Part shown: positions 54,236 through 58,525 of the stretch, in pieces
Position numbering within the stretch: position 1 is the stretch's first letter
How the letters are laid out: the number at the start of each line of letters is the position of its first letter
Assembly (NCBI GenBank): GCA_026770025.1
Contig: JAMXDE010000017.1
Coordinates: 248,001-312,000 of the forward strand
Direction of reading: 5' to 3'
From: Craspedostauros australis
Lineage: Eukaryota > Bacillariophyta > Bacillariophyceae > Mastogloiales > Achnanthaceae
Length of the DNA stretch: 64,000 nt
Notes under the pieces: model-generated
What the model saw: only the letters and a program-made list of their open reading frames with translations
What the model was told of the DNA's origin: nothing
Databases searched by the model: none
Position numbers and translations under genes: made by a program

Positions 54236-57200
54236 CTATTCGTTCTGTATGCTCGCTTTGGACTCGTCGTCCGTTATCCCGAATAACTCGAGACAATGTT
54301 GATGATCGGCTGGATGTCCCCAGCCACCATACCCCTTGCGTGCCTTGCGAGTTTTTTTCACCGGTGGCGTGGAAAGATTGGCATTCGTCGGCACCTCGAA
54401 GCTCATCATCAGCTGTTTGCCCTTCACGATGTTGGCTTGTAGGCGTTTCATCATTGCATGCATGTTCTTCTCGTGCATGCCACCTTCCAATCCAATGTGG
54501 ATGGCCTGCGGTTTGGACGGCGATACAACGTATTCAGGAAGGATACCCTTGGCCATGAGATGGACCATGGACCAGTCCCTGTCGCAAAGTGTCACAGAGT
54601 AACGGAGAGCAGGGGATGTACGAATACGAAGGTTTGGTACCATGACGTTTGAAGCGCCCGGTGCCATACAAGACGAAAATGGAAGGAAGACAAGAAAGCA
54701 ACAGCAGCATCGCTGTGAGTTTGTGTGCTGTGATCGATCCCATGCGTGCACTCTGCCATGCACTCTTTCACCCAGCCAGCCACCCATTCGTTCATTCATT
54801 CATCTATTCATTCATCCGGTCGTTCATGATGCCCATTGATCAAAAAACAGCACCTACCAGTTGTAATCATCAAACGTGCAGTACTCTTTGGCACCCGACC
54901 GGATCTTGGCATAGATAGCACGATCGATCGCCATCGGCCCAGTCACGAACACCTTGTGAATGAACTTGTTCACTTCAAATCGTTTGCCCTTCAGCGTCGA
55001 TTGCATGAAGCCTTCGGTGGGATCCAACGTCACGCCAAAGTACCGTTCGCGGTATCCACCTCGATCGATGGCGCGGTAGGCCTCGACAAGGGTGCGATAG
55101 ATCATCGGCGCGATGACGTAATCCTCCTCCAAAAACAGAAAGGCACGCGCGTTGCCAAGTTTGACGCTGCCGAAGACCTGATTGAGTAACCACGTGAAAT
55201 GGTGCTTGCAGCATGTGATCTTGGCCTCGCGTTTGTGAAGGTAGGTGTCGCCAGCGTAGTCGATGTTCAATTTGGGATCGTCTCCAGGGAAGGTATCGGG
55301 ATGTTCCAAGCAGGAGAATGGATGAAAGACTTGGATGATATCAAACTCATCTTCTCGCTTCAATTCTTCGACGAATTCCACAACCTCCGCAACTCTGCCA
55401 TCGTGCGAAATGATGACGGGGACTCGATCTCGCGGAAAGTCGGACTGGCGCAGAGACGCAATGGCCTCCTTCAGATAATCCACGCGTTGGTACACCATGT
55501 ACACGAACGGAAATGTCTCCGTGGCAAAGTTGATGGGATCAGGTCCCGACGATTTCTCGACGGTCTTCTCCTTCTTGGCTGGCATGTTGACGGGGGTAAT
55601 CTGTCCCAAGTTGCTCGCATCGATCTTGAGATCCTCAAAGCTTGCTATTCCTCGCAATCCACCGGTACTTTTCGGTTGTTGCGTCACCTTGCCAAACATC
55701 TCCAACGGATGGTTCAATTCCTTCCACATTCGCTTGGCCAGCGGCGTGATAATGAACTCAGGTGCCTCGGTATCGTAAGATTTTCCGTCCTCAACTACGA
55801 CACGCAGACGCGTGCGTGTGGGCACGTTATCCGTCACTCCCTGCGCCAACCCACGCGCATCGTCCTGCTTCAGGCGACGGTCCAACCAAATGTCGATCGA
55901 TCCTTCCTGCAACGACGCCGCGCCTTGCGCATGTTCGCTGAGCACCGTCAGGCGCTGATTCGAATCTTCAATCGAAGCATGCGTTGGCATGGGGAAAACC
56001 TGGGACTGGATGGGCATGTCGTCACGGAAATAATGCGTGTCGAAGTTGTATCCATTCAAATCCGTGTGGAAGACTCCGGCATTGGCTATATCTCCCGAGA
56101 AGCGCACAAACCATTCCTCATTGGCCGTCTGCAAGTCGGTCTCGTAGATGAAATCGATGACCGTTGCAGATTCCCCATTCGGTGGTTTCTTCACGACGAC
56201 GGTGCGTTTCCAAAACTCCGTCTCAAGCACGTATCCATCCTCCGAGATGGTTGATTCCTGAACATCGTGATGTTGGAGCTTGCCGGGAAAGAAGAGGTAG
56301 GCACCGCCCTTGCTCACCTTCCAGACCATCCATTCCTCGCGGATGGGATGCGTCATGAGACCGTTCTCATCGAATTGAACCGTGCCTTCGCCGCCGCCAG
56401 GCACTTCGCACGGTAACTGCGCCAATTTCGTCTTGCGCGGCGGGACGACAACATCACCGCAGACTTGATCGAACTCCACCGGATTGTAGACAAGGATCTT
56501 TGCATCCGGAGCGCACAGATTCTGGCTCAACCCGCGCGGCGCATCGGACTGCCAGCACGCCTTGAGGGTATGCAGATCAAATCCATGCCCGTCCACATCA
56601 CCCAACAGCTGAGGTGCGATCTTGCTTTGCAACGATCCAATGGCGGCATGGATGCGCTTGGCGTAATCGAGGACGACGTGCGTTTTGGCCGTGCCCGTGA
56701 CGCCATCGTGATGCTGAAAGAGACTGAGCGCACGCCGTTCGTCTTGCAGATCCGTGCGCGAATACCCGAGCTTGCTGGCCGCGAAGAGAAGGCGTTCCAA
56801 TTTCCGATCCAACGCCTTGTCAAAGATGCGCGACGTGAAGTAGCCGCTCCAGTAGTCCTGCTCGCGGTCGGCGTACGTGAAGAAGCTGCCCTTGAGGATG
56901 GGTGGTTCGAATTTGCCCATGACGGCCTCGAAGTATTGCGACAACGTGCCAAACTGGATGGACACGTTGTCGACATTGTCGTTGATGTAATCAAAGATAC
57001 GCTGATAATTCTCAAACTGATAGTCGGCCTCACGCACGGATTGGTACCGAAAGTCATCGCCGAGCGGCGCCAGCACGACGTTGGATCGATACAGGTTGGC
57101 CTTCTTGCGGTACTGATCCAACAGCAGAAGCGACCGCTCCTCCACGTTGCTGTCATCAATCGGCTTGACGTTCTTCTTCCACGGACACTTGCCGTAATTG

Positions 57201-58525
57201 GCGAAGCCGCCCTTGTTCTTGCTACCGCCGTTGTGAAATCCTTGCACGCGCGCAAAATCGAATTGGCAGCACACGCTGGGATCGGGGCCACACGTATGCG
57301 GTACGTCGTACGAGAAGAAGGGCATGGTGTGCGTGAAAATATCGTGCTGACCATCGTTGTCCCACGTCTGGCGCCACATGAATTCGAGCTGCTTGTGCTT
57401 GGCCAGTTCCTTCTTGACGGCGTAGTGGACGCGCTGGATGAGCATGCCGTGGAAACCGTACTTTTGGAGGAGATAGGCCATGGTAGGGGAGTAACCGAAG
57501 GGATCGATGGACCAGCCGTATTTCGGCAGATATTCTTTGCCGCCAAAGGCGGACGTGATGAAATCGTGGCCTTCCTGCAGCTGGATCTCCATGGCGTAAA
57601 GCTGCGTATTGGCCTCATCGGGTTGCACCCACCCGCCCGTGACGAACTCGAGCTGTCCATTGGCCAACAGTTGCTTCGTGAGCTGCTGCACATCGGCTGA
57701 CTGCTCCTTCCACCACCATTCGAAGTAACTGATCTCGGCCCAAATGAACTTGCGCCGCGCATCCTTGGCCAACGACTCCACGACGCTGGATAGGATCGTC
57801 TTGGTCTGAGACTGGAAGTACTGATCGAACGTCTTGATCCAACCCGGATCGCAATGCGAATGCGGTACGACGAAGATCTGGAGGGGACGCGAGTCGTCGA
57901 CGGGTTGCACGTCCCATCCTTGCTTCCAGACGCCGCCGTCGGGGTTGTCGAACGGGAGCGTGCGCGCCATCTGTCGCATGTCGATCATCTCCTTGGCGTT
58001 GGGCGTGACTTTGGGTGTGGCGTGGATCGGTGACGTGTGCGTCGTTTGCGCGATCTGTGGCACTTTGTGCATGTCTCCCTTCTGCATAACTTGCTGGACG
58101 TTCGCGATCATATCGTTCGTATCCACATGCTTGCTCTTTGTTGTGCGCATGAGGAAGACGGTGAGGACGATCCAAATGCCAATGAGCAAGCAGAGGACGA
58201 GCACCATGCAGCATGTCAGCAGGCGACCCGACTTTTTGTTCCTGTCGGACTTCTTGCGCTTCTTTTTGGATTGTCGTTGCCGTTGTTTGTGGCCGTGCAA
58301 GTCTGCGTGCTGTTGGACGCTATTGTTGTTGTTTTTGTTGCTGTGACTGGCGGTGGCTGCATTGTGATCCGGCTGCTTCCCACTTCTGCTTTTGGCTTCA
58401 TTCCTGGAAGAAGGATGTGATACGTTGGAGGTTGGCGGAGTGATGCATGACAGATCGACGCTGTTGCCGCTGTTCACGCCAACATTCGCGTTGCCGCTGT
58501 TCTTCGTTCTCGACCGGATCGGCAT
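54236..58525 (-). CDS. Alpha-mannosidase II (GH38) fused to GlcNAc-transferase II (GT16), two exons
   Basis: Exons complement 58525-54858 and 54578-54236; the 279-nt intron (GTAGGT...GACAG) splits a Trp codon. 1,336 aa. ATG 58525 is used because the longer frame starts at TTG. Residues 1-100 are a basic cytosolic tail, about 103-128 a type II membrane anchor (TCCMVLVLCLLIGIWIVLTV), then a stem. GH38 part: VVPHSHCDPGWIKTFDQYF (zinc His/Asp, near 222), YGWSIDPFGYSPTM with the nucleophile Asp (near 338), HHDGVTGTAK (near 608) and beta domains to about 980. GT16 part from about 1005: VYMVYQRVDYLKEAI, VIISHDGR, VFHPFS, REAKITCCKHHFTWLL, FLFLEEDYVIAP (metal EED) and FDDYNW|DWSMVHL across the intron, ending with HIGLEGGMHEKN. 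ManII removes two mannoses and GnT-II adds GlcNAc to the exposed arm, so the two activities are consecutive in Golgi N-glycan processing. Confidence 0.9.

Follow-up and report, generated by a model that had tools for sequence, protein, structure and literature searches.

Can two consecutive Golgi enzymes, alpha-mannosidase II (Man II) and GlcNAc-transferase II (GnT-II), which animals and plants make as two proteins, be carried on a single polypeptide chain in a diatom? The question is raised by a gene of Craspedostauros australis that lies on the minus strand of the 64,000-nucleotide stretch of DNA analysed here (the window). Its features are as follows.

54236..58525, minus strand: coding region of the ManII–GnT-II fusion gene, with one intron and a 1,336-aa product
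54858..58525, minus strand: exon 1, 3,668 nt, encoding residues 1–1222 plus the TG of the Trp1223 codon
58148..58222, minus strand: transmembrane signal anchor, residues ~102–126, predicted from hydropathy only
56873..57880, minus strand: GH38 N-terminal catalytic domain, residues 216–551 (PF01074, 259.7 bits, cut-off 25)
56624..56854, minus strand: alpha-mannosidase middle domain, residues 558–634 (PF09261, 60.5 bits, cut-off 31.1)
55853..56194, minus strand: GH38 C-terminal domain, residues 778–891 (PF07748, 49.5 bits, cut-off 25)
55520..55705, minus strand: inter-domain linker, residues 941–1002, of low conservation (0.25 over 941–995)
54858..55519, minus strand: exon 1 part of the GT16 (GnT-II) domain, with Glu1133-Glu1134-Asp1135 (PF05060 match)
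54579..54857, minus strand: intron, 279 nt, GT...AG, with an in-frame TAG directly after the donor
54236..54578, minus strand: exon 2, holding the end of GT16 with Asp1224 and His1250, then the stop codon
54293..54577, minus strand: exon 2 part of the GT16 domain, residues 1224–1318 (PF05060 match)

The two-exon model of the preliminary description, with its intron position and 1,336-aa product, was reproduced exactly by translation. The start codon lies at 58525, and removal of the intron joins TG to G, which restores Trp1223 within FDDYNW|DWS. The GH38–GT16 junction (~55520) falls inside a single 1,263-codon frame running from stop to stop, and GC3 is nearly level along the gene (0.64–0.77). 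All of the motifs named in that description were found, both those of the mannosidase (HCDPGW at residue 224, SIDPFGYSP at 339, HHDGVTGT at 605) and those of the transferase (FLFLEEDY at 1129, FDDYNWDWS at 1218, HIGLEGGMH at 1250). The intron place is common to relatives: among 149 relatives' models with a match to the motif, 26 mark the same position, 17 by stopping exactly at DDYNW or DEYNW and 9 by continuing as NWY, a read-through that would be expected from entering an intron of the same phase.

Frame, Pfam matches and hydropathy agree on a fusion of GH38 and GT16 in a single frame, preceded by one anchor. The most hydrophobic 19-residue segment among residues 1–180 begins at residue 107, with a mean of 3.07. 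PF01074 scored 259.7 bits against a cut-off of 25, and the MGAT2/GT16 profile (PF05060) reached 155.7 bits (cut-off 27) over residues 1003–1318, covering profile positions 25–349 of 349; the Pfam matches, at E values of 3.9e-77 and 2.3e-45, are far past chance. In an alignment of 46 rows, counting that of the window and leaving out P0050 and P0120, the mean majority-residue fraction was 0.68–0.80 in the GH38 parts and 0.47–0.61 in the GT16 parts, and the linker, at 0.25, was the least conserved luminal part. Linker length also varied, with a median of 55 residues (5–95% range, 28–122) in 47 full-length fusions that include P0050 and P0120. The extremes were 2 and 312 residues, the latter in P0120, where the linker contains a sulfotransferase domain.

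Comparison with known structures identifies the parent enzymes. The GH38 half matched Drosophila Golgi mannosidase II structures at E ~5e-168, jack bean alpha-mannosidase at 5.5e-66 and the lysosomal chain fragment 1o7d_A at 8.6e-39, values that place it with the Golgi rather than the lysosomal/vacuolar subtype, as far as sequence comparison can assign it. The GT16 half matched human GnT-II (5vcm) at E 3e-27 or 7e-29 in two alignments. Catalytic positions were mapped by structure–sequence alignments, and each count takes only those fused rows that have a residue at the position. For GH38 we take His90, Asp92, Asp204 and His471 to be zinc ligands and Asp341 to be the acid; these were kept in 70 of 70 (H90), 71 of 72 (D92), 72 of 72 (D204), 97 of 97 (H471) and 92 of 92 (D341) rows. 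For GT16 the presumed metal ligands Asp261 and His374 were kept in 108 of 109 and 82 of 82 rows, and the presumed base Asp347 in 79 of 87; the remaining eight rows read Tyr, which may be compared with the nine models reading NWY. In the C. australis protein the GH38 N-terminal domain holds His224, Asp226, Asp341 and Asp491, the middle domain carries the zinc ligand His606, and both predicted catalytic sets are intact.

The mannosidase part resembles the Drosophila enzyme (1ps3/6rpc) in all five catalytic and zinc positions and in its catalytic and middle domains, and differs from it at residue 225 (window 57851–57853), a Cys in HSHCDPGW that lies between two zinc ligands, where the fly enzyme has Asn91. 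Of the fused rows that reach this column, 61 of 71 have Cys, as do 30 of 35 GH38-only rows. The last 114 (6rpc) to 144 (1ps3) residues of the fly chain lie outside the match and only ~60 residues are left here ahead of GT16, which leaves no room for the last part of the fly enzyme. The transferase part keeps the EED, DDYNWDW and metal His of human GnT-II/MGAT2 (5vcm) but, unlike the human protein, has no anchor or stem of its own, its profile match starting at position 25 of 349.

The fusion is real, yet its kind had already been described in 2025. The preliminary description knew of no protein with this layout, a claim that falls with section 3.2.2 of the review PMC12507850 (September 2025). 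For Phaeodactylum tricornutum and five further entries from diatoms it reports a bifunctional Man II/GnT II, and Mayamaea pseudoterrestris is among the diatoms named; the layout is thus not new. The P. tricornutum enzyme is given there as 1,453 aa, with a single transcript suggested by the RNA-seq of Ovide et al. As far as the published description allows comparison, the C. australis product is shorter (1,336 aa) and otherwise alike, being one type II protein in one frame, with one predicted signal anchor, Man II at the N-terminal side, GnT II at the C-terminal side and the motifs of both. Passages of PMC9826595, PMC7140410 and PMC7773692 mention no Man II–GnT II fusion. The present analysis adds a further genome, a broader range of carriers and the finding that fused and split forms are intermixed; for the last of these we found no earlier account in those parts of the literature that were searched.

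Relatives also carry both domains. Clustering at 90% identity gave 192 relatives, 47 of them full length by the limits set; both domains are present in 110 of the 192 proteins, GH38 preceding GT16 in 110 of 110. Named carriers include the diatoms Nitzschia, Seminavis, Cylindrotheca fusiformis and Mayamaea, and in one relative (P0102) an MMETSP transcript ORF of 1,275 aa, labelled complete, contains both domains. A search with the GT16 region among fusion-length proteins, a length range that favours fused proteins, returned 77 matches, all 77 with MGAT2 and at least one GH38-family domain. The GH38-region search returned 2,099 matches; among the 120 listed, 85 carried GT16 and 35 did not, the latter including one protein from a nematode and some truncated at contig ends. 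These 35 indicate that the fusion is not indispensable. A search with GT16 alone gave 61 matches, in 14 of which BLASTP detected part of GH38. Two candidates for GT16-only proteins, P0139 and P0149, were rejected, as their N-terminal starts correspond to the GH38 domain end and mark them as pieces of fused genes. A PF03071 (GNT-I) match in P0043 was likewise rejected as a third enzyme, since it overlaps the start of the GT16 domain.

Profile searches of the C. australis genome covered 74.8 Mb in 90 contigs. Over this span no second GT16 match was found, and one further GH38N match, on contig C49, carries HTHDDVGWLKTVDQYYHG, which we take to be lysosomal-type motifs. Matches to GnT-I (one), GH47 (two), the GT10 family (12) and GH20 (one) indicate that partners of the pathway are present.

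These data make it very probable that the gene encodes a type II membrane protein of the Golgi whose lumen-facing part comprises two active enzymes working one after the other, connected by a flexible tether; activity and Golgi location in C. australis are inferred from sequence. After GnT-I had capped Man5GlcNAc2, the GH38 part would remove the two outer mannoses of the alpha-1,6 arm in a retaining, zinc-dependent reaction, and the GT16 part would then add beta-1,2-GlcNAc to the exposed alpha-1,6 mannose. The fusion would set a 1:1 ratio and a common location for the second and third steps and would anchor GT16, while the flexible tether could raise the local concentration of the intermediate without a rigid channel. 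The lower conservation of GT16 relative to GH38 counts against this proposal. So do the N-glycans reported for P. tricornutum, which are paucimannosidic and fucosylated, not GlcNAc2Man3; PMC12507850, which postulates the same pathway, supposes that a hexosaminidase would trim the glycans later.

Several other readings of the locus have to be weighed against the tethered pair. A true substrate channel, in which a fixed geometry would hand the mannosidase product straight to the GT16 site, could account for consecutive steps on one chain and for the similar LE-F/G-like GH38 end seen in GH38-only copies and in the eight fused proteins examined. We consider it unlikely: the linker shows little conservation of length or sequence, related diatoms also have split copies, and the substrate would be a glycan on a folded glycoprotein, which should be hard to pass between buried sites. 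Since the linker is so variable, a flexible tether is favored over a rigid channel, and tethering with a 1:1 ratio would most likely be the better fit. Alternatively, a fused precursor might be cleaved in the linker to yield two Golgi enzymes, as the lysine-containing, poorly conserved sequence around AKKEKTVEKSS might allow. The GT16 part so freed would be soluble, having no anchor of its own, whereas the GT16-only proteins P0145, P0162, P0166 and Attheya P0174 have hydrophobic, anchor-like segments, which suggests that anchoring matters; judged by conservation only, the 0.25 fraction also leaves no conserved cleavage motif apparent. Cleavage is accordingly a distinctly improbable account of the gene.

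It could also be argued that the mannosidase alone works and that GT16 is a relic drifting since the fusion, as GT16 changes faster than GH38 and GH38-only copies do without it. However, almost all fused rows that reach the metal and base columns retain these residues, and the fusion holds the sole GT16 match in the genome, so that we regard a relic as highly improbable. A gene-model or assembly artefact joining two neighbors has a negligible chance of being correct and is rejected, as one frame spans the junction and the P0102 transcript ORF is labelled complete over both domains; an assembly join in particular is excluded by the 110 of 192 relatives with both domains in the same order.

If the tethered pair is the working form, how do its split relatives relate to it? 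GH38-only copies adjoin fused ones or lie on a contig of equal size. Seminavis has the pair P0084/P0015, GH38-only P0087 and fused P0016 of Cylindrotheca fusiformis have consecutive gene numbers, and further pairs are SGBAC_005745/005744 (P0110/P0018) of Bacillariaceae and P0118/P0021. With the nematode left out, 18 of 34 GH38-only proteins end within 20 residues of the fusion-type GH38 boundary; others have longer tails, up to 188 residues, and P0114 stops short of the boundary. On the GT16 side, P0145 and the GH38-only P0091 each lie on a 7,163-base contig, perhaps the same one, while in Epithemia clementina the contigs bearing GH38 (P0111) and GT16 (P0176) differ in size, which places the two genes apart there. 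A search for homology between the anchors of GT16-only and fused proteins did not establish any, the best match (E 0.007) being a 28-residue stretch around the anchor.

Phylogenetic trees were built from rows with enough overlap (123 and 150), and subsets of 43 and 40 rows were picked after those. P0139 and P0149 were labelled solo in the 150-row tree and left out of the 43-row tree, and introns or contig ends may have truncated the models behind some other solo rows. In the 123-row tree, solo copies of Seminavis and of Cylindrotheca/Bacillariaceae fall together with fused copies from their own clade. For the 43 GT16 rows, a single fused clade was rejected (p-AU 0.0004), as was a single solo clade (p-AU 0.0015); seven solos without Attheya as one clade were not rejected (p 0.15). 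For the 40 GH38 rows a single fused clade was rejected (p-AU 7e-55), and the tree needs eight state changes, at least five of them by starred branches. The architecture is labile: across the sampled trees it has switched between fused and split more than once. The fused rows take the deepest places in the rooted GT16 tree (43 rows), which suggests an early fusion with later splitting, but the deepest row, P0126, and the outgroup have very long branches flagged by the program, and repeated origin of the fusion is possible.

One lineage may have gone further. P0120 (1,720 aa) has a sulfotransferase domain between GH38 and GT16 (residues 1012–1131, PF13469, 31.7 bits, cut-off 27), and its 220-aa tail after GT16 (1501–1720) gave no Pfam match even at E values as high as 1. 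Its tree sister P0124 has an insert of ~190 residues within the GH38 part (residues ~644–845) that is absent from P0120 and whose match to LicD is weak (PF04991, 23.7 bits) and spans just 33 residues. The sulfotransferase and the possible LicD-like insert hint at multi-step Golgi polypeptides. Tentatively, and with slightly more doubt than conviction, we view the fused enzyme as an old diatom Golgi platform that was re-split more than once and to which one lineage added enzyme domains; re-splitting would have proceeded by partial tandem duplication and through GT16-only genes with anchors of their own.

With two consecutive Golgi steps on one chain, these proteins offer a natural test of whether co-localisation alone sets the N-glycan outcome, and diatoms with split genes provide matched comparisons. 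The arrangement is also relevant to glyco-engineering in diatoms, although the basic fact is already in print.

Two observations concern other glycosylation genes of the genome. A 1,987-codon frame for a GH47 mannosidase (L011, G000:C29:235500-245300), presumably an EDEM3-type protein with a protease-associated domain, adjoins the GnT-I gene in divergent orientation. Among the 12 PF00852 (GT10 fucosyltransferase-family) matches, four lie within 250 kb on C7 and another two, on C31, are separated by ~2 kb; the GT10 family may have expanded in this genome.
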